Positions 30,749 through 40,831 of a stretch of 40,831 bases of DNA are shown here, one piece after another. The position numbers and the translations under genes are program-made. The notes below the pieces were generated by a model. The model saw nothing but the letters and a program-made list of their open reading frames with translations. It ran no database searches and was not told the DNA's origin. Position 1 is the stretch's first letter. Each line of letters opens with the position of its first letter. Source of the DNA: Nitrospirota bacterium (GTDB lineage: Bacteria > Nitrospirota > Thermodesulfovibrionia > Thermodesulfovibrionales > BMS3Bbin05); assembly GCA_020351835.1 (NCBI GenBank), contig CP070669.1, positions 1,824,450 through 1,865,280 on the forward strand. Direction: 5' to 3'.

Positions 30749-30841
30749 ATCTATCCTCCCTTACAATTCCTGTTAAATGGTCCTCTTAAAGTGGTTATTT
30801 TATCAAATATCACATCGGATTTTGTAAAAAAAGTTCATGGA

Positions 30842-30858
30842 TCTGCTTTAAAAGCAGA
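30842..30858. promoter_or_regulatory. 17-base palindrome between purC and the CHASE2 kinase
   Basis: TCTGCTTT, a central A, and AAAGCAGA form a perfect inverted repeat. It lies 94 bases upstream of purC and 119-135 bases upstream of ATG 30977 in the divergent gap 30749-30976. It is followed by TTGTTTCACG rather than a U-run, so it looks more like an operator than a terminator. The remainder of the gap holds no gene that I can support. Confidence 0.35.
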
Positions 30859-30940
30859 ATTGTTTCACGTGTTCGATTCTACAGGCCTGTTTAAACGCCA
30901 ATATAATGCATTAGAGACCTGCCGGATACCTGCATCATTC

Positions 30941-30969
30941 TTGCCTAAAAATCACTGCATTGATATAAT
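30941..30969 (+). promoter_or_regulatory. Candidate promoter for the CHASE2 kinase, implying a leaderless mRNA
   Basis: TTGCCT (30941-30946), a 17-base spacer and a perfect TATAAT (30964-30969) stand seven bases before ATG 30977. No Shine-Dalgarno precedes that ATG. Transcription would begin at about the start codon. This also argues against the upstream in-frame GTG 30791. Confidence 0.55.
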
Positions 30970-30976
30970 CACCAAT

Positions 30977-33535
30977 ATGAGATTACCGCGATTCGTTTCA
31001 ACGAACTGGTTCATAGGTTCTACGATAACGTCGATATTTCTTATTGCATATCTGATAGGCCTCTACCCGTTGGTTCTGGCCGAAAATAAAATGTATGACC
31101 TCATGTCCAGACTGGACTCCGGGAAGGGCTCATCACACGTCGTCCTGGTAGAGATAGATGAAAAGAGCATTGAGGACCTTGGTCCGTGGCCATGGCCCAG
31201 AAAGTACTTTTCGGATGCACTTGGCAACCTTTCGGACAAAGGGTCTAAGGTAATATCACTTCATGTTCCTTTTACATCACCTGACATAAATCCCGGACTT
31301 GATAAGATTCGTGAGGTCAGGAAGGATATCGCAAAAAAAAGGAAGCGTTCAAAAAACAATATCTATTCTGCTATATATGCTGACATCAGGAAGGCTGAGA
31401 GGGAGTCTGATCATGACACAATGCTAACCAGGGCTGCAAAAGCCGCCGGCAATGTGCTTCTATCGCTAAATGTTCGTATCGGCGAGCCCTCCGGGAGCAA
31501 TGATAAAAAGATTCCTGTATATTTAATCAGGAACTCAACTATATTTGATAACGGGCAGCTTTCAGGCTCAGATAATAAGATTACTGTAAAAAATCCATTT
31601 GCTTTCAATAGGGATCGCTACATATTTGCGTCCACCATATCTCCACCTTTTCAGGATCTTGCTTCGAATGCAAAAGGCATGGGGCACATTTCGTATCCGG
31701 AGGACAAGGATAATGTGATAAGGAATGCAGCGTTGTTCATATCATACAAAGGAAGACTTTACCCTTCGCTTGCTTTACAGTCCGCAGTAAGGTATCTCGG
31801 TCAGGATGAGAAGCATGTAAAGCAAATCATCGGGAAAAGAGGTTTCAGTGGGATCCAGATAAAGAACCTTAGGGTCCCGACCAGTGAAAGGTTCGAAATG
31901 CTAATTTCGTTCCAGTCCAGCAGGGATGTACACCAAAGATACTCTTTCAGCGATCTGGTAAATGATGTGATCCCTCCGGATATTTTTAAAGGGAAAATAG
32001 TTATTATTGGTCCGTCTTCACCTGACTTAGGCTCACTCCACATTACCTCCGTGGGAGAGGAAATGTCCGAGATTAGCATAGCGGCAAACATAATTGATAA
32101 TATCCTGAACGAAACGGCCATTATGCGACCGTTATGGGCCTATATTATTGAAGCTTCAGTACTATTGGCCCTGGGATTGTTCGTTGCTTTAATGATACCT
32201 CGCCTCAGGAAAAGGAACGGGTCCATTCTCCTTGGTATTTTCGTTTTGACGTGGTCTGCGATCTGCCTGTTCCTGTTTGTAGGGTTCGGCATATGGCTAA
32301 AGCCAGTCACTGTCATTATGCTTTCCATAGTTGCATTTGCAGCAGTTACAATTAACAGGATGATTTCGTCAGGTGTTCTGTCTGATGCTGAAAGCATTGA
32401 GTCCTACAAGATGCTGGGGTTATCTTTGCAAGGACAGGGAATGCTGGATATGGCCCTTGAAAAGTTCATGAAATGCCCTGTAAAGGATGATTCCGTTAAG
32501 AGCTTGCTCTATAATCTTGGACTTGATTTTGAACGAAAGAGGATGTTCAATAAGGCTGTTGCTGTATATGAGCATATTCTTAAGGGAGGGAAATACAAGG
32601 ACTCACAGGAAAGGATAGTCAGATTGAGGCCGGCAGAGGAAGTAACTGCTATAGGCACACAATTCCTGTCTGATGAGCGAACCATGATACTTGAGGATAC
32701 GGTCACCAGGCCTACACTGGGCAGATATGAGGTAGTTGAAGAACTGGGACGGGGAGCGATGGGGACTGTTTACCTTGGAAAGGACCCGAAGATCAACAGG
32801 GATGTTGCGATCAAGACCCTCAAGTTCGATCATTCAAATGAAGAGGAGCTGAGCGATTTCAAGGAACGCTTTTTTCGCGAAGCGGAGGCAGCCGGCAATC
32901 TGGCCCATCCCAATATTATGACCATTTACGATATTGGCGAAGAACATGATATGGCTTATATTGCCATGGAACTTCTAAAGGGCCGTGAGTTAAGTGAATT
33001 TACAAGTCATGAGAATTTGCTTCCGATAGAAGAAGTACTTAATATTATATCGTCAGTGGCTGAAGCTCTTGATTATGCTCACTCTAACGGTGTTGTCCAT
33101 AGGGACATAAAGCCGGCCAACATAATGATATTAGGGGACGGTACTGTTAAAGTAGCGGACTTTGGTATCGCCGCTCTGTCTGCTGCTGCTGAAACGCATA
33201 CTGGAACCCAAACCGTTGTTGGGACCCCCAACTATATGTCTCCCGAGCAGATATCGGGTAAAAAGGTCGACGGACGATCCGATCTGTTCTCCCTAGGATG
33301 TGTACTATACGAGATGTTGACCGGTGAGAAACCTTTCAAAGGGGATAACCTTGGGGAACTTCTTCGTAATATTCAGAAAGGCGATTACCATTCACCTGAG
33401 GATGTAAGACCGGACCTTCCAAAATGCTGCGTTGAAATAACGAACAAGCTATTGTCAAAAGCTCTTAAGAAGAGATATAAGAACGGAAAAGAGATCGCAG
33501 ATGACATCAGGAAGTGCATCCAGAAGGTAAACTGA
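30977..33535 (+). CDS. CHASE2-domain transmembrane Ser/Thr protein kinase with TPR linker
   Basis: Eukaryotic-type kinase of 852 residues from ATG 30977. TM1 is near 12-34; a periplasmic CHASE2 sensor follows (VVLVEIDEKSIEDLGPWPWPR is its typical opening); three hydrophobic segments lie about 385-460; TPR-like repeats occupy about 470-535 (LDMALEKFMK...FNKAVAVYEHIL); a Thr-rich linker and the kinase domain (about 580-850) complete it. Catalytic features are intact: GRGAMGTVYLG loop, Lys613 in VAIK, HRDIKPAN with Asp710, DFG Asp728, and GTPNYMSPEQ. The topology places the sensor outside and the kinase inside. The frame continues upstream to GTG 30791, but that part lacks coding character. It is convergent with an FHA-domain gene, a likely substrate or reader. 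A second CHASE2 protein, an adenylate cyclase, lies 4 kb away. Confidence 0.92.
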   Translation: MRLPRFVSTNWFIGSTITSIFLIAYLIGLYPLVLAENKMYDLMSRLDSGKGSSHVVLVEIDEKSIEDLGPWPWPRKYFSDALGNLSDKGSKVISLHVPFTSPDINPGLDKIREVRKDIAKKRKRSKNNIYSAIYADIRKAERESDHDTMLTRAAKAAGNVLLSLNVRIGEPSGSNDKKIPVYLIRNSTIFDNGQLSGSDNKITVKNPFAFNRDRYIFASTISPPFQDLASNAKGMGHISYPEDKDNVIRNAALFISYKGRLYPSLALQSAVRYLGQDEKHVKQIIGKRGFSGIQIKNLRVPTSERFEMLISFQSSRDVHQRYSFSDLVNDVIPPDIFKGKIVIIGPSSPDLGSLHITSVGEEMSEISIAANIIDNILNETAIMRPLWAYIIEASVLLALGLFVALMIPRLRKRNGSILLGIFVLTWSAICLFLFVGFGIWLKPVTVIMLSIVAFAAVTINRMISSGVLSDAESIESYKMLGLSLQGQGMLDMALEKFMKCPVKDDSVKSLLYNLGLDFERKRMFNKAVAVYEHILKGGKYKDSQERIVRLRPAEEVTAIGTQFLSDERTMILEDTVTRPTLGRYEVVEELGRGAMGTVYLGKDPKINRDVAIKTLKFDHSNEEELSDFKERFFREAEAAGNLAHPNIMTIYDIGEEHDMAYIAMELLKGRELSEFTSHENLLPIEEVLNIISSVAEALDYAHSNGVVHRDIKPANIMILGDGTVKVADFGIAALSAAAETHTGTQTVVGTPNYMSPEQISGKKVDGRSDLFSLGCVLYEMLTGEKPFKGDNLGELLRNIQKGDYHSPEDVRPDLPKCCVEITNKLLSKALKKRYKNGKEIADDIRKCIQKVN

Positions 33536-33550: not shown

Positions 33551-33916
33551 TTATTTCTTTTTTACCCTTATGGTCTCGTCCATAAACTCTGGCATTAGCT
33601 TTTTAGGCTCTTTCTTCTCGCCCTTCTCTGTCTCTTTGAACACCAGGGTATATTTGCCAACACCTATCTTGTCATTATTATTAAGGCCGGAACGCCAATT
33701 GACCATTGCACCATTAACAAAGGTTCCGTTAGTGCTCTTTATGTCTTCTACAAAAAAGACTGAACCATGCTTAATAATCTTAGCATGCTCACGGGAAACA
33801 GACGGGTTCTTCAAATAGATATCACATTTTGATTCACGTCCGATGACCGTTATCTTCTTATCAAGAGGAACTTCATCAACAGCCTTTCCACCTATCTGAA
33901 CTATTACTTTCGCCAT
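33551..33916 (-). CDS. FHA-domain protein with C-terminal Thr tail
   Basis: A 121-residue cytoplasmic phosphothreonine-binding protein. The FHA core spans about 20-90 with the conserved ITVIGRESKCDIYLKNPSVSREHAKI (Gly-Arg, Ser and His ligands) and STNGTFVNG loop. A charged linker (EKGEKKEPKK) leads to the tail MPEFMDETIRVKKK, where the Thr after DE could be a kinase site; GarA-like FHA proteins bind their own phosphorylated tail (family knowledge; here inference). The start ATG 33916 follows GGGAGGT; the frame stays open to 33979 but without coding features. It is convergent with the CHASE2 Ser/Thr kinase, 15 bases apart, making kinase-FHA partnership the simplest reading. A perfect TATAAT stands 28 bases upstream. 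Confidence 0.92.
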   Translation of the reverse strand: MAKVIVQIGGKAVDEVPLDKKITVIGRESKCDIYLKNPSVSREHAKIIKHGSVFFVEDIKSTNGTFVNGAMVNWRSGLNNNDKIGVGKYTLVFKETEKGEKKEPKKLMPEFMDETIRVKKK

Positions 33917-33944
33917 AACTACCTCCCGGTGATATTTGATGATA

Positions 33945-33950
33945 TTATAA
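33945..33950 (-). promoter_or_regulatory. Candidate -10 box for the FHA gene
   Basis: On the minus strand a perfect TATAAT lies 28 bases before ATG 33916, leaving a short leader that includes the GGGAGGT ribosome site. The -35 position falls in the terminator U-run of the upstream small gene, so the two elements are packed together. Confidence 0.45.
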
Positions 33951-33963
33951 TGAATGACACTGT

Positions 33964-33990
33964 AAAAAAAAAGGAGCACTAGCTCCTTTT
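33964..33990 (-). terminator. Intrinsic terminator of the small Cys-motif gene
   Basis: Read on the minus strand: AAAAGGAGC, a 4-base loop TAGT, GCTCCTTTT (9-base perfect stem), then an unbroken run of nine T in total. It lies 24 bases after the stop of the 34015-34287 gene. A stem ending in a T-run is a textbook Rho-independent terminator. On the plus strand only four T follow the stem, so termination there is weaker. Confidence 0.85.
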
Positions 33991-34014: not shown

Positions 34015-34287
34015 TCAGTTATTACACAGGTACTTTATTATGACTTCAGCTTTTTCGATATCATCCGGGAAAATTTCTCTCATCTGCTGATCGACCTCGG
34101 CCATTCCACTTTCATCCACTGGGTGGTAACCTTGCCTGATCTTCTTATTGACCATGTACCTCGCACACCTTTCCTTGTCCTTTACACAGTACTCGACCTT
34201 ATACTGCATCCTCTCCTGAGCAGTGGGCAATCTGTTCATTCTGTTCGTGAAAAATACGCATACATCTGTTTTTTCACATATACTCAT
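34015..34287 (-). CDS. Small cytoplasmic protein with two Cys pairs, function unknown
   Basis: A 90-residue protein with no signal peptide or membrane segment. Cysteines are arranged as CEKTDVC near the N-terminus and YCVKDKERCARYMV in the middle, plus one near the C-terminus. Short proteins with this C...CxFF...YC...CARYMV pattern are scattered in anaerobic bacteria as hypothetical proteins; four Cys in two pairs suggest a metal or Fe-S site, but I cannot name a function. It has its own promoter (TTGACA-17-TAATTT) and its own terminator, so it is a single-gene unit. A weak AGGGGG precedes ATG 34287. It lies between the FHA gene and the envelope operon, all on the minus strand. Confidence 0.75.
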   Translation of the reverse strand: MSICEKTDVCVFFTNRMNRLPTAQERMQYKVEYCVKDKERCARYMVNKKIRQGYHPVDESGMAEVDQQMREIFPDDIEKAEVIIKYLCNN

Positions 34288-34557: not shown

Positions 34558-35688
34558 TTACTTCACCTTCAAATTAAGTTTGCCGGGTGATACTCCCTGG
34601 ACCTCAAGGTCGAAGCCCTTAAACTTCATTTCATCTAGTATCTCCGCAAGCCTGATCGAATCACCGTTATAAGTGATATTGAGAACAGCTGTAGGAGCAT
34701 CAAAGCTTCTCTGAAATACTTCCGACACACCTCTCAGTGCCCCTATCTCGTCCTTAACGCTCCTGAGGACGGTGAAATTGACCCCGCTAAGCACTATCTC
34801 TATTTCATTGCCCCGTATCTTTTCTTTGTTCCATTTCTTTACGATCTTCCAGAAAATATCGCTTGCTGCGCTCTTACTCGTTCTTTCCAGTGCCTTTCTC
34901 TGGGCCGAGTCTGCAACCGCATCCGTAGCTGCTTTGGACTGACTGGATATGGCATAAAGTGACGCATTATCGGTCTTAAGGGCCCTGAGCGATATGCTAG
35001 CCTTACTTGCATAAAGCTGCCCTCTGATGCTTTCGACATCACCGATCGAAGCCGTTCCAACAACCACTACCTCAGCACCTGACCTCAGGCCAATTTTGGC
35101 TGCCGCTAGCTCATCTCCCTCGGCAATCTTCCTAAGCTCGTCCTTCCTTATATTTTCAATGGCCATGGCCTGGTCGATAAGCGAGAACTCCTTTTCTACA
35201 AATATACTGCTTACGGCATGTTCTGCATGCTTAGTAGGTATTACATCCTTGCCTCTTACTTCAAGTACTATTACCATAAGACGCGGCTTATCCATTTCAT
35301 GGTATATTAGCGTGGCATCGTCTATCAAACTGCTCTTTGACACATCCGCCTCTATATCTATCAGATAATTGTTACCGCTTTGCTTCTCGCTTATTATTTC
35401 ATACCTGTGCACATAACCGTCCGCTTTAGATATTATCCTGTCCCTGACGAGATCATAGTTCTCAACGACTGATTCTGATAGCACGTGAGAACCTACCTGG
35501 TCTACTGCATTTCTTTTCGCGTCCTCAAGAGCTTCTTTCTTTGCCGCTCCCACGTCAGCCGAGTAGATCACAGCACTCCCCGAAGCCATCACCGTCTTTA
35601 TTTCGCTCTTCTTTGCCTCTGCCTGCAACACCATCACAGGAATAAGCACAAATAAGAACATAATTATAAATACTCTCTTAAACTCCAT
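34558..35688 (-). CDS. FlgT/CsgG-like secreted periplasmic protein
   Basis: A 376-residue exported protein. A signal peptide (about 1-25, hydrophobic VFIIMFLFVLIPVMVLQAEA) is followed by a LPP20/FlgT-N-like alpha-beta domain (about 30-115, VMASGSAVIYSADVGAAKKEALEDAKRNAVDQ). A CsgG/FlgT-middle-like domain (about 140-280) has SGAEVVVVGTASIG then LYASKASISLRALKTDN, and a C-terminal alpha-beta domain (about 300-376) has the pattern LSGVNFTVLRSVKDEI. FlgT stabilises flagellar outer rings in Vibrio, but no flagellar gene is here, so a flagellar role is not implied. GGAGGTGG precedes ATG 35688. It is the last gene of the envelope operon, 25 bases after the CHASE2 adenylate cyclase. Family assignment is by visual pattern only. 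Confidence 0.8.
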   Translation of the reverse strand: MEFKRVFIIMFLFVLIPVMVLQAEAKKSEIKTVMASGSAVIYSADVGAAKKEALEDAKRNAVDQVGSHVLSESVVENYDLVRDRIISKADGYVHRYEIISEKQSGNNYLIDIEADVSKSSLIDDATLIYHEMDKPRLMVIVLEVRGKDVIPTKHAEHAVSSIFVEKEFSLIDQAMAIENIRKDELRKIAEGDELAAAKIGLRSGAEVVVVGTASIGDVESIRGQLYASKASISLRALKTDNASLYAISSQSKAATDAVADSAQRKALERTSKSAASDIFWKIVKKWNKEKIRGNEIEIVLSGVNFTVLRSVKDEIGALRGVSEVFQRSFDAPTAVLNITYNGDSIRLAEILDEMKFKGFDLEVQGVSPGKLNLKVK

Positions 35689-35713
35689 CTTCCACCTCCA
35701 TTACATATATTGG

Positions 35714-37819
35714 TTATTTGGTAGTCATCTCAAAAACGCCATCCCACTTATCTGTTGGCGGTGATTCAATAAGCTCCCGGCATCGTCTCACGTACAGAGC
35801 GGATGGTCCGTCATCAGGTTCAATTAAAAGAACATCTTGGAACAGGTCCAGAGCATTCACCCAGTCCCTTTCTCTATATGCTTTAATAGCTTCGCCATAT
35901 TTTTCAAGGAATACCGGTCTTTCTTCAGATGATTTAGATATAAGCTCATATATCCTTACTGGCTGGTGTTTCCCTATTACCCTGACAAGGTCAAGCTCTC
36001 TGAAATTGAAATCACTACTTGCGGCTTCCATAGTGTACTCACTAACGATGATCTTAGTGCTATAGATCTTGTTAAGGGACTCGAGCCTTGAACCAAGATT
36101 TACGCCATCTCCCATCACCGTATAATCAAATATCATTTCCGAACCCATATTGCCTACTACCATAGTACCTGTATTGATGCCGATACCAACTTCTATTATC
36201 GGTTTACCTTCTTTTCGCCATTTCCCATGAAGAGATACCAGCTGACGTATCATATCGAGGGCTGTCGCGCAAGCCATGGACGCATGACGGGTCATCTCTA
36301 CCGGGGCACCGTAGAATGCCATTATGGCATCTCCCATATATTTATCCAGCACCCCATTATGCTCGAATATTACCTTTGTCATTGCTGTGTGAAATTCGTT
36401 CAGCAGTTCTACAACATCGGAAGGGTCCATTTTTTCAGATATTGCCGTAAAATCCCTCGCATCAATAAAAAGAACGGAGATATCCTCCTTGTTACCACCC
36501 AGTTTCATTAGTGCCGGGTCCTCGAGAAGCTTCTCAATTACCTGAGGTGAAACATAATGTCCAAAGGCCTGGCGGATCCTAACCTTATCTCTAAGAGCTT
36601 GCATCCTGTGATAAGCCACACCTCCGAAATAGGTGAGCAGTACTATCCCCTCATATGACACTATCTCAATAAAATAGTCGAACTTAATGAAAACAAGATA
36701 TGATATCATCCCTGTAGCAGTGAACAGGACCACGCATAGCAGGAACGCTACAACAGGCCTTATGTTAAGGACCACAAACAGAACGGTCGTGATAATGCTT
36801 ATCACTATCATAAACCCGACTATTCTGGCCCTGCCCGGCGTCCTTATATAGTTCTGCTCAAGTATAGTGTTAATTGCATGAGCATATACCTCTACTCCGG
36901 GCATACCCATCCCGGACTGTTTTATGATCTCCTTCGTTTCGAACTTAACTACTTCAGAGCTCTTTGTCCTGAACGGGGTCAGAAATGAGTCATGATATGC
37001 CGGATGAACATTCCCTATCAGTATCACTTTATCTTTTACCTTCTTATTATCGAAATTGCCGGTCATCACATCACTGAACGAGACCTGATCGAAAGCGCCT
37101 GGCGGCCCCACATAGTTCACAAGCATCTTTCCCTCAGGATAAGGTATCTCTATGCTGCCCATTTTAAAGACATCCGTGGCACCAAGGTCTATTTCAGGGA
37201 TCTCGTCAGGATATATGATCAGTCTCGCTGTCTCTACAGCAAGGGAGAGGACAGGTTCAAGATGACCTGTTACCTCGTCCACTTCAAGGCTCACAAGAGG
37301 TATCCTGCGCAATATGTTATCCTTGTCAACAAGATGGTTTATAAATCCCTCCCCTACCTCTCCATCTCTGAACTTCTCTAGCGGAACTACCTGATGTCCC
37401 TGGGTTATATACCTCGAAAGTACGACGTTTCCGGAATCATAAATAGCCCTTGCCAGAACATTATCTTCTCCATCAGCATTAAATCCCGGCTTTGACAGGT
37501 CCATGTCCATAACGATAAGGTCAGCACCGGCAGCTGTTAGGTTCTGCAGTGCTTTAGCATAATAGGTGCGAGGCCACTGACTTATTTTTCGGTTAAGGTA
37601 TCTAACGCTCTTTTCATCTATGGTTACTATCAGGATGGAATCATTAGTGACCAGCTCGCCTCTCAAACTAAACCTGAGGTCACGTGACATTAGCTCCAGG
37701 CGTTCAAGGGTACCTGACTGATTCAGGACCAGCACAAACGTTAACACGACCGCACCAATGATAAGGCCGGCAATGTATCTCTTCTCTAGCAATGCTACTA
37801 ACCTTTCAGTGATAATCAT
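35714..37819 (-). CDS. CHASE2-domain adenylate cyclase (class III)
   Basis: Membrane cyclase of 701 residues. TM1 is about 15-33; a periplasmic CHASE2 sensor covers about 40-330 (SILIVTIDEKSVRYL opening, KDKVILIGN closing); three hydrophobic segments lie about 338-410; the cyclase domain is about 440-610; a TPR-like tail (YGEAIKAYRERDWVNALDLF) follows. Catalytic residues are complete: metal Asp453 in FIDARDFTAISE and Asp497 in DKYMGDAIMAF, exactly 44 apart; Lys493 and the Asp of FDYTVMGDG specify ATP; NLGSRLE holds the transition-state Asn/Arg. The product should be cyclic AMP. ATG 37819 overlaps the LPP20-like gene (ATGA), so sensor and periplasmic protein are coupled. The same CHASE2 layout is found in the Ser/Thr kinase at 30977. 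Confidence 0.95.
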   Translation of the reverse strand: MIITERLVALLEKRYIAGLIIGAVVLTFVLVLNQSGTLERLELMSRDLRFSLRGELVTNDSILIVTIDEKSVRYLNRKISQWPRTYYAKALQNLTAAGADLIVMDMDLSKPGFNADGEDNVLARAIYDSGNVVLSRYITQGHQVVPLEKFRDGEVGEGFINHLVDKDNILRRIPLVSLEVDEVTGHLEPVLSLAVETARLIIYPDEIPEIDLGATDVFKMGSIEIPYPEGKMLVNYVGPPGAFDQVSFSDVMTGNFDNKKVKDKVILIGNVHPAYHDSFLTPFRTKSSEVVKFETKEIIKQSGMGMPGVEVYAHAINTILEQNYIRTPGRARIVGFMIVISIITTVLFVVLNIRPVVAFLLCVVLFTATGMISYLVFIKFDYFIEIVSYEGIVLLTYFGGVAYHRMQALRDKVRIRQAFGHYVSPQVIEKLLEDPALMKLGGNKEDISVLFIDARDFTAISEKMDPSDVVELLNEFHTAMTKVIFEHNGVLDKYMGDAIMAFYGAPVEMTRHASMACATALDMIRQLVSLHGKWRKEGKPIIEVGIGINTGTMVVGNMGSEMIFDYTVMGDGVNLGSRLESLNKIYSTKIIVSEYTMEAASSDFNFRELDLVRVIGKHQPVRIYELISKSSEERPVFLEKYGEAIKAYRERDWVNALDLFQDVLLIEPDDGPSALYVRRCRELIESPPTDKWDGVFEMTTK

Positions 37820-39183
37820 CTTAAGCGTTCGTAATGCGCTATCAGAGGATTGAGCGGGCTATCTATACTTCCCTCAGTACCACCTATGGATGAGTCAGTA
37901 ATAATTATAACCCTGCTCTCCTTGAACAGTTTTGACAGATCTTTGTCCGATTCGATCTTTTTTGCATCAGAACCGCTTATTACTACATTAGCCTTTAATG
38001 GTCCGTCACTCCTTACACCTTTGACCTTCAGCGGATTGTTTCCCTGGCGTCTTTTTCGCCTCTTCTTATTTTCATGGTTTTCAGCAACTAATGGACCGCC
38101 TGATGGCATGAAGGTCTCATCGCTGGACGCAAGAAGAGCGTACTCTGTAGATATCGCGTTTATATACAATGGATTAAGACCGACCCTTTCCGTATTCGTT
38201 TCAGGAACACCGGTGGTATAACCGACGACCCCTCGTTTTATAAATGATGCCTCATCCACCATCTCGACCGAATAAATCTGCCTTCCTGTATTATCCAAAA
38301 CCATTGGGAACAGGGCTGTTCTCAGGCCCGTGCCCCTTGCATCTATCACGATTCCGGTTATCCCTTCATCAGCTTTGTCACTCCCTCTCCCGGGCATAAC
38401 CTTTTTCTTCTTTACAACCTTGCTATATATCTCTACCCCCAGTCCCTTGATACCTGTAAGCGGGACCTTTATATTTACCCTGTATGGCCTATTGGCTTCC
38501 TCGCTTTCGATAGATGCCGACCTGACAATGCCCTCTATTCTGTAGAACAGCTCCTTATCTTTACTGAGAAGCCCCTTCAACTGTTCCTCTGCATCCACTC
38601 TTATGCCATTTATCATTTCCAGGGCATTAGCCTGTGCGTCAATTACGGCCGCCCTCCTGGCCAATAGTTCAGCTTCCTTCCCTTCCTTGTCCGAGGGCCA
38701 CTCTCCAACCCCGTATGATATCAAGAACCCGTCCTGCCAGTTGATGGTTCCATTGGGAAATTCCTCAACAAGCGGCTTTAATCCGGTATATACCTCTCTA
38801 TCATCCTCTGTAAGAGAATATTTTTCTATCAGCTCAGAAGGGATCTCAACGAATGAACGTATGTATACAAAGTACGCCCCATCCTTTTCTCCTTCGCTCA
38901 ATATATCATAAGAAAGTGTTCCTTCAAGATCTGACCTGACCTCTCTTATATTGGGTATCATCTTTACTGATACGGAAGCTCCCAGGCCTTTCTCTATTGC
39001 ATCTCTTTTAGCCAATATCAGAGCCACTCTTTTTGCCACTGAAACGGTAGTCTTCACAGGAGCTATCCCCTCCCCCACTATCTCGACACGCACGGTCTCC
39101 TCAGCTGATCCAATAGACGGTGTTTGAAAAAAGGCAAAGAACATTAAAAGCAAGCTTGCCACAAAAGAGTTATTAAGTTTCAT
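37816..39183 (-). CDS. LPP20/FlgT-like secreted protein with basic linker
   Basis: A 455-residue exported protein starting at ATG 39183, preceded by GGAGGG. Signal peptide about 1-28 (SFVASLLLMFFAFFQTPSIGSA). Two related alpha-beta domains are suggested: an N-terminal one (VEIVGEGIAPVKTTVSVAKR...AKRDAIEKGLG) and a second (about 150-250) with LARRAAVIDAQANALEMING, the helix pattern of LPP20-type domains. The next part, GITGIVIDARGTGLRTALFP, resembles the domain that follows LPP20 in large uncharacterised envelope proteins. A strikingly basic stretch, NKKRRKRRQG, lies near residue 370. The C-terminus (KANVVISGSDAKKIESD) may be another small domain. The frame continues 15 codons upstream of ATG 39183, but without signal character. 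It is coupled to the CHASE2 cyclase by a four-base overlap. Confidence 0.8.
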   Translation of the reverse strand: MKLNNSFVASLLLMFFAFFQTPSIGSAEETVRVEIVGEGIAPVKTTVSVAKRVALILAKRDAIEKGLGASVSVKMIPNIREVRSDLEGTLSYDILSEGEKDGAYFVYIRSFVEIPSELIEKYSLTEDDREVYTGLKPLVEEFPNGTINWQDGFLISYGVGEWPSDKEGKEAELLARRAAVIDAQANALEMINGIRVDAEEQLKGLLSKDKELFYRIEGIVRSASIESEEANRPYRVNIKVPLTGIKGLGVEIYSKVVKKKKVMPGRGSDKADEGITGIVIDARGTGLRTALFPMVLDNTGRQIYSVEMVDEASFIKRGVVGYTTGVPETNTERVGLNPLYINAISTEYALLASSDETFMPSGGPLVAENHENKKRRKRRQGNNPLKVKGVRSDGPLKANVVISGSDAKKIESDKDLSKLFKESRVIIITDSSIGGTEGSIDSPLNPLIAHYERLR

Positions 39184-39205
39184 AAAGAACCCTCCAGAAC
39201 AGGTC

Positions 39206-40039
39206 TTAGAACGTATAAAAAACGGCAAGTGTAACGCCGTGAGTAATATCCCTCGAGGTTATAGCCTCTGTCCGTCCCGGTGCACGACCCGTGAACTCGA
39301 ACATCTGATACCGGTAGCCTAGCTGTACAAGCACGTTCTCGATAGCCTGGTACGTAACATTAATCTCTGTATTGAAACCCAGCTGACCCTGCGGAAGGAT
39401 ATCCTCCGTAACACCGTTCTCATTGGTTATTTTCATATCCATCATAGGGTATGATATGCCGGCCTGTCCGCTAAGAACGACCTTATCCATGACGGGATAT
39501 GCTGCTCCAACACCAAACGTCGGAACATGTGCATGGGCATCAACTATATACCTGTCCACCTGAGTCCCCATCAGCGTATATGTCATATCAAGTTTCAGCT
39601 CCATCTGCTGATATTTATATCCGAAAAATGCCTTGAACATCCCGTTCAAAGCATAGCTGACAGCAAGGTCATAGTCTTGTCGGTCAAGTCTGGCGGTCCC
39701 TCTGGGGTTCATGGCCCCGGCTGTCCCCGCCCAGTCCTGATCAAAGCTGCTCAATACCATAGGGGCGAAACTCACCGATAGTTTTCCGTCATCAGTTCTG
39801 TATCCTAACAGGGGGCCAACCATATATCCACTGCCGATGTCTCTTTTTGCCTCGAATTGCACCCTGTTAACCAGGAATGCAACAGCAATGTCCTTTTCAA
39901 GCCAGTCCAGAATACCCGAATCCCAGAAAGAGTAATATCCCTTTACCCCGACAAAATAGTCACCGGCATCTGAATTCAACGGGAGGACAATGATAAGCGC
40001 AATAAGAACAATGAATAACACAAGTATGAACCTTCTCAT
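39206..40039 (-). CDS. Small outer-membrane beta-barrel protein
   Basis: A 277-residue exported protein. Signal peptide about 1-25 (MRRFILVLFIVLIALIIVLP...SDAGD). The mature part has alternating hydrophobic/polar strands ending in aromatic residues (YFVGVKGYYSFW, GYMVGPLLGYR, MFKAFFGYKYQQM, VLVQLGYRYQMFEF), closing with GVTLAVFYTF, whose terminal Phe is the usual outer-membrane insertion signal. Eight to twelve strands are likely; no OmpA peptidoglycan domain follows. AAGGAG precedes ATG 40039; a GTG at 40054 contains that ribosome site and is less likely. It lies 52 bases after the CsgG-like lipoprotein and 22 before the LPP20-like gene. Function unknown; a structural or porin role is possible. 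Confidence 0.8.
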   Translation of the reverse strand: MRRFILVLFIVLIALIIVLPLNSDAGDYFVGVKGYYSFWDSGILDWLEKDIAVAFLVNRVQFEAKRDIGSGYMVGPLLGYRTDDGKLSVSFAPMVLSSFDQDWAGTAGAMNPRGTARLDRQDYDLAVSYALNGMFKAFFGYKYQQMELKLDMTYTLMGTQVDRYIVDAHAHVPTFGVGAAYPVMDKVVLSGQAGISYPMMDMKITNENGVTEDILPQGQLGFNTEINVTYQAIENVLVQLGYRYQMFEFTGRAPGRTEAITSRDITHGVTLAVFYTF

Positions 40040-40091
40040 AGACTGCTCCTTCACGATCTTGTATTTATATCAATACTATGCAACTCCATTA

Positions 40092-40831
40092 CTACAGGGT
40101 CATAGGCAAAGCCATAGCAAGGCTCGCAAGGTTATTCCTGGCCCTCTCATACCCCGGATCATAATTTAGTGCCGCTTCAAAATTTGACCTTGCTTTATCT
40201 ATCAGGTCCTTTGCGAGATCCTTCTTCCCCTTGGCCTTAAGGTCTTCAGCCTCATGAAGTACCATCTCACCGGCATAATTGCTTAGGGAAGCATAAAGTG
40301 ATGTTGTCTCGATATTCTTTTCTATTTCATCTCTCTCTGAATCCGTAAGAGTTGCCCCCAGGTACTCTGTCATCTTTATGACGAGTTGCTTTTCCAGTTC
40401 AAAGAACCGGTCAAGCCTTCCGGTGACGGATGATGCACCAAGAAGTGCACCGCTTTCAACGGAGTATATTTTAGCTTCCATAACAAGTTTACCGTTCATG
40501 ACCATATAAGCGCCTGCAAGCGTGAAGCGTGCAGCTACGATCTTTCCCATCTCTACGGCATCGTCCTCTTCTACAAGTCCTAGATGTTGTATCTTCTGTT
40601 GCTCCAGGATATCCTCGAGCCTTTCCCAGCTTATGATATTGAACAACCCGATGGATTCGAGATCGGTCATTATCATCGATGGTATCCCGAACTGCCATGG
40701 GTCGTATTCTGATGCGACCGATTTGGCAGTGGTATTTTTAAAGTTAAGGACCATAAGAGCGACTCGCTCTTCCCGAGGAATATCCCTGAGAACCTTTCCG
40801 CTGGAAGTCGTACCTGTGCTCTTACAACCTG
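40092..40831 (-). CDS. CsgG-like lipoprotein with C-terminal TPR, N-terminus beyond window
   Basis: The frame is open to the window edge. Its first visible residues, GCKSTGTTSSGK, are a lipobox-type GC (Cys codon at 40824-40826), so only the signal peptide is missing and the ATG at 40754 is internal. The CsgG-type core follows: VALMVLNFKNTT, PSMIMTDLES, ISWERLEDILEQQK and VEMGKIVAARFTLAGAYMV, matching proteins whose fold resembles the curli secretion pore subunit. A linker leads to a TPR-like helix pair (ARSNFEAALNYDPGYERARNNLA) at the C-terminus. CsgG relatives without curli genes are common and mostly uncharacterised; whether this one forms a pore is unknown. It is the first visible gene of the operon with the barrel, LPP20-like, cyclase and FlgT-like genes. 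Confidence 0.82.
   Translation of the reverse strand, partial: GCKSTGTTSSGKVLRDIPREERVALMVLNFKNTTAKSVASEYDPWQFGIPSMIMTDLESIGLFNIISWERLEDILEQQKIQHLGLVEEDDAVEMGKIVAARFTLAGAYMVMNGKLVMEAKIYSVESGALLGASSVTGRLDRFFELEKQLVIKMTEYLGATLTDSERDEIEKNIETTSLYASLSNYAGEMVLHEAEDLKAKGKKDLAKDLIDKARSNFEAALNYDPGYERARNNLASLAMALPMTL

Follow-up and report, generated by a model that had tools for sequence, protein, structure and literature searches.

The analysed window is a stretch of 40,831 nucleotides, corresponding to positions 1824450–1865280 of a single 2.29-Mb contig. Near its end lie five tandem minus-strand genes, at the place and in the order (C-B-L-Y-F) that a sequence-only reading had given, and the ATGA overlap between L and Y described in that reading was confirmed at 37816–37819 (Table 1). 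The start of B is either a GTG at 40054 or an ATG at 40039. L was called from a TTG at 39228, and an ATG at 39183, which comes after GGAGGG and is followed by a signal peptide, is the likelier start. A strong terminator-like site (consensus match only) stands just 5′ of C and, together with the one 3′ of the sixth open reading frame (ORF), would fit a single transcription unit. The G+C content of the operon (45.6%, versus 43.0% in the rest of the window) is uninformative on recent transfer.

Table 1 Genes and features of the operon.
Feature	Position in window	Strand	Description
C	40092..40831, 5′ end beyond window (L005:7542-8414, partly masked)	-	CsgG/LpoB-fold lipoprotein with C-terminal TPR-like region
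B	39206..40054	-	OmpA-like outer-membrane β-barrel with signal peptide
L	37816..39183	-	Exported; FlgT_N-like N-terminal stretch, FlgP/LPP20 (SHS2) domain and Tp0624-like C-terminal domain
Y	35714..37819	-	CHASE2 sensor (aa 26-335) and class III nucleotide cyclase (aa 444-619)
F	34558..35688	-	FlgT-like, exported; FlgT_N (aa 32-117) and CsgG-like middle domain
90-aa ORF	34015..34287	-	No Pfam/NCBIfam match; possibly last gene of the transcript
Intrinsic-terminator-like hairpin	33969..33990 (L005:1440-1419)	-	Consensus match only; may end the operon

Domain composition of the five proteins

In class III cyclases, an Asp pair serves metal binding, a Lys/Thr pair serves specificity and Asn/Arg residues serve the transition state. 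All of these are present in Y, with the Lys/Thr pair as in CyaB-type cyclases, and the catalytic motifs (FIDARDF, DKYMGDAIMAF and DYTVMGDGVNLGSRLE) are intact in alignment with CyaB (3r5g). Both the CHASE2 domain (2.7e-48) and the Guanylate_cyc domain (1.3e-25) score above the Pfam cut-off. The predicted product of Y is cAMP. Of the four CHASE2 proteins encoded in the genome, three are cyclases, Y among them, and the fourth is a kinase (K) beside the operon; the genome also encodes seven proteins with cNMP-binding domains.

The L protein by itself has no Pfam match above cut-off, and its FlgP-like identity is visible through family profiles only. Searched against the Protein Data Bank (PDB), the L family profile matches FlgP (9hmf_C, 1.2e-17), and a narrower profile matches both FlgP (9hmf_C, 3.9e-12) and Treponema Tp0624 (5jir_B, 1.3e-10). 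At the sequence level, the profile aligns to FlgP 9hmf without gaps over the β-hairpin insert, and it covers 5jir, which we take to be Tp0624 (the database record names an OOP family OmpA-OmpF porin), in two stretches. The N-terminal part of Treponema pallidum Tp0624 matches the FlgP-like and C-terminal domains of L; Tp0624, however, ends in an OmpA-like domain that L does not have. The AlphaFold model of L is poor (pLDDT 49). FlgP, Lpp20 and FlgT have an SHS2-like fold in common, and the hairpin insert correlates with ring formation (PMC12222027).

F contains a FlgT_N domain (7.6e-11, above the Pfam cut-off); a further match, to LipL46, falls far under the cut-off of that model. An AlphaFold model of F built from 16 sequences (pLDDT 78) ranks FlgT (3w1e, 1.6e-10) and FlgT within the Vibrio LPHT ring (8z5n) ahead of Cj1090c, CsgG and PelC in the PDB. 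Since the whole-length TM-score is only about 0.3, the domain types of F are supported and their arrangement is not.

The match of C to CsgG (8e-7, 29 bits against a Pfam cut-off of 20.8) is partial, covering positions 8–97 of 210, and C also gives Pfam matches to LpoB (0.003) and TPR_19 (0.005); a phmmer search of C against the PDB returned no match. Its first residues within the window read GCKSTG, of which the GC pair fits a putative lipobox cysteine, the nucleotides ahead of it being masked. B matches OmpA_membrane (3.1e-5, 24.2 bits against a Pfam cut-off of 21). The proposal that three of the exported proteins are related in fold was borne out, with SHS2/FlgP-like domains in L and F and a CsgG-like domain both in C and centrally in F.

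Distribution of the module and its relatives

Loci were collected from 396 genomes of the phylum by similarity to L only. Seven matches, none of them within the order, stood out above the others (L231–L237), and in 7/7 of these loci a CHASE2 cyclase gene lies downstream on the same strand. A search of 175 family genomes with the L profile, taking 450 bits or more as full-length L, identified L in 11, the next score being 219 bits. Five of these genomes were new to this search: Y shares a run with L in four, and the contig of the remaining one stops before any Y would be reached; linkage thus held in 4/4 informative held-out genomes. Overall, L and Y occur on one strand in all 11 informative genomes, and L-Y-F in 8 of them. 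A lack of conserved co-occurrence had been named in advance as evidence against a connection among these genes, and what was found is L–Y linkage throughout the informative genomes. The five families do not all recur together: L-Y, usually L-Y-F, recurs with orthologous cyclases, no counterpart of B was found, and C recurs by fold class only.

The carriers belong to another family of the phylum, plus one genome of a third family, so the conserved cases share common ancestry and are not independent events. Their arrangement varies. In L231 and L254, L-Y-F is contiguous, exactly as in the window. Six carriers (L232–L236 and L252) have a gene for a 913–941-aa protein between L and Y; the one such protein scanned is GNA1162-like with a β-helix. 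F does not adjoin Y in 3 of the 11 carriers; among the 8 counted as L-Y-F, it lies 1.3 kb after Y in L236 and is a DUF4384-type member in L234. At the two loci examined for what comes after F (L231 and L233), GNA1162-like or CsgG-like genes are found.

The cyclases themselves agree with this pattern. Among the module loci, the best blastp matches of the window Y are their Y proteins (37% over 613 aa, 1e-140), and it scores 419 bits to module cyclases against 349 bits for the best order-level match, the two values coming from different programs. Likewise, the L genes closest to the window L are those just upstream of Y. Phylogenetic trees place the window Y with the module cyclases at an SH-aLRT of 100 and, in a second tree, at 100/100, with long branches for both the window Y and the module cyclase group. 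The seven first carriers hold between one and six CHASE2 genes each, and two have just one; chance adjacency is therefore unlikely. L-Y-F is thus a conserved module that is apparently undescribed: in open-licence papers, we found no combination of CHASE2 with CsgG or of FlgT with LPP20 and CsgG, although such absence is no proof.

Beyond the module, a narrow F alignment searched against genome contigs found nothing beyond F clusters in Nitrospirota, weak relatives elsewhere and one Syntrophaceae locus (L147), where an F-C-C run and a cyclase gene are convergent and form no operon. A plasmid search with L gave no match.

The sequence-only reading had also stated that no curli or flagellar genes are present, and this holds genome-wide, as judged by one family each (PF07012 for curlin and PF06429, Flg_bbr_C, for the flagellar rod and hook). 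Of eight carriers, counting the window's genome, five have no PF06429 match and none has curlin. The L-Y-F module accordingly occurs in flagellated and non-flagellated carriers alike. An origin of F and L as remnants of a lost flagellum is disfavoured by the non-flagellar neighbourhoods of both across the order.

A neighbourhood search of 149 relatives within the order did not find the operon in the order-mates examined, and L and F are both missing from a genome of the same genus that is 93% complete. Order-mates instead contain conserved L-L-L-F-L-x-C or F-C-x-L-C clusters with no internal cyclase, which indicates that L/F/C assemblies can exist without this cyclase. Their nearest cyclase genes usually come after a FecR gene. 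Runs in which FecR and a cyclase enclose a DUF4384 protein, itself a member of the F/L superfamily, and then a WD40-caspase protein occur in L116, L118 and L163, and L114 has the FecR/DUF4384/cyclase run without the caspase in between; these runs resemble a module for stress or cell death that includes a cyclase. The L113 run reads C-SLH-L-C-transglutaminase-x-FecR-cyclase. With the window set aside, F, L or C genes lie within 8 kb of 14/36 cyclases of the FecR-linked clade, a fraction biased upward because some regions were picked for proximity to F, and of 0/46 cyclases in other clades.

Several further observations concern these relatives. CHAT proteins are encoded near the FecR-DUF4384-WD40/caspase-CHASE2 cyclase runs of L114, L116 and L118. 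One protein (L098:13818-14798) fuses FecR with LPP20, tying the usual partner of CHASE2 cyclases to the LPP20 family. The family f25 (L243, L244, L246, L247 and L250) has a conserved run of L, a TPR/SLH-type gene, transglutaminase, L, in some cases CsgG, and FecR, with no cyclase.

A candidate envelope sensor and its alternatives

We propose, with a probability of about 0.55, that the operon encodes a non-flagellar outer-membrane assembly of FlgP/FlgT/CsgG type together with a dedicated CHASE2 cyclase that monitors it and signals via cAMP. L and F, with the domain types of the flagellar FlgP/FlgT rings, would join the CsgG-type C and the barrel B in an outer-membrane and periplasmic assembly, in which L and F would most likely form, or sit on, a ring or disk associated with the outer membrane. 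The assembly state of this ring or disk, or the load on it, would act on the periplasmic CHASE2 domain of Y and alter the activity of the cyclase dimer, and one CRP-like protein would read the resulting cAMP. For this scheme we infer co-transcription, ring formation, physical contact and the direction of signalling. Distantly related genomes keep the core trio (L, Y and F) in an unchanged order, so a genuine connection between cAMP signalling and envelope structure is probable. The most specific version is one that we put forward tentatively, as somewhat short of an even chance. In it, a non-flagellar FlgP/FlgT ring or disk would supply the receptor half in a one-component cAMP pathway, with a dedicated CHASE2 cyclase gated directly by the state of assembly of the ring or disk, and two or more lineages of the phylum would have kept this arrangement.

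The nearest functional precedent is in Sinorhizobium meliloti, where, according to the accessible part of the report, the outer-membrane barrel NsrA acts upstream of the CHASE2 cyclases CyaD1, CyaD2 and CyaK, which need the barrel and act via the CRP-family regulator Clr (PMC13001267). FlgP/FlgT/CsgG-type partners are not described in that part of the report (PMC13001267), the barrel gene B lies in the operon here and is likened to NsrA by barrel type alone, and the host is a relative of Nitrospirota/Thermodesulfovibrio rather than a plant symbiont. By analogy, it is plausible that, as originally suggested, periplasmic proteins feed the CHASE2 domain and cAMP reports the state of the envelope or of secretion. 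Alphaproteobacterial CHASE2 cyclase genes adjoin FecR and NHLP export genes or a gene for an FhaC-type barrel, and such outer-membrane-barrel and export neighbours would likewise favour envelope sensing.

In domain types, the operon resembles the flagellar outer-membrane rings of Vibrio and Campylobacter (FlgO, FlgP and FlgT; 8z5n, 9hmf; PMC12222027), with which it shares the FlgP SHS2 domain and hairpin insert in L, the FlgT fold in F and an outer-membrane lipoprotein in C. In contrast to those systems, rod and hook genes are absent here, an adenylate cyclase is encoded in the operon and L has the extra Tp0624-like domain. The parts are already known, as is the general scheme of CHASE2 cAMP signalling that involves a partner in the outer membrane; what appears to be new is this combination of parts.

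The main rival holds that the cyclase senses another cue, such as a lipid, LPS, redox state or a small ligand, and that the envelope genes are a co-expressed or cAMP-controlled output; it takes a shared operon as a sign of shared regulation rather than of physical sensing. The many order-mates whose L/F/C clusters have no cyclase agree with it, as does the pairing of other CHASE2 cyclases with FecR, with SH3-like proteins and an M48 peptidase, with an FhaC-type barrel or with NHLP genes. However, the L-Y pairing is kept across families at about 36% identity, with the cyclases in one supported group, and a specific partnership of L and Y fits this better than casual co-regulation does; we regard the output reading as rather unlikely. 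The CsgG domain of C and the CsgG/PelC-like middle domain of F, CsgG being the curli export lipoprotein, raise the alternative of a secretion apparatus, in which C would be a CsgG-like channel, L and F periplasmic adaptors, and the cyclase a gate or reporter of secretion; some alphaproteobacterial CHASE2 cyclases do adjoin FhaC or NHLP export genes. The match of C to CsgG is only partial, though, and C may be LpoB-like, no curlin gene was found in any carrier and no substrate gene is seen in the operon, leaving this alternative improbable.

The locus might also derive from the FecR-CHASE2 cyclase system typical of the order through loss or replacement of FecR. The order's nearest cyclases usually have FecR beside them, the FecR-LPP20 fusion exists, and FecR-CHASE2 operons of the order and of rhizobial plasmids likewise pair a class III CHASE2 cyclase with an adjacent periplasmic partner. 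That partner is FecR there and L here, however, and in the tree the window Y joins the L-Y-F cyclases and not the FecR-linked clade; the gene neighbourhood of Y yielded no FecR gene, and such an origin is very improbable. Least credible of all is that unrelated envelope genes came to lie beside a cyclase by chance: the same-genus genome without L and F and the failure to find the operon in the order-mates examined would fit this, whereas the L-Y(-F) order is kept in 11 informative genomes, held-out ones included.

If the assembly state of a FlgP/FlgT-type ring or disk does gate Y directly, the operon would represent a new kind of envelope-state sensor. The operon also supplies named periplasmic candidates for the input to one group of CHASE2 cyclases. 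FlgP/FlgT-type ring proteins without a flagellum also bear on the origin of the flagellar outer-membrane rings.

Flanking genes and other CHASE2 loci

A gene for a CHASE2-TPR-Ser/Thr kinase (30791–33535, plus strand) and one for an FHA protein (33551–33979, minus strand) adjoin the operon. In two genera of another family (g115 and g109), L homologues adjoin genes for a Ser/Thr kinase and an FHA (+SLT) protein (L238–L241, L245 and L249); the kinase of L241, the sole one scanned from these loci, has no CHASE2 match. On the 5′ side of the operon (L005:8579-9364) lies a gene for a redox protein of the C_GCAxxG_C_C type whose leader contains RR, followed by small genes, one of which has CxxCH motifs.

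At most of the loci with CHASE2 cyclases of a different clade (L006:2736-6806, L137, L160, L162, L165, L168, L184, L195–L197 and L237), two genes come after the cyclase, the first of about 155 aa and the second of about 285 aa. The second of these genes in L006 encodes an M48 peptidase, as does a 295-aa gene in L237, which lies behind the second of the cyclases there. In the window's genome, a small lipoprotein comes next.
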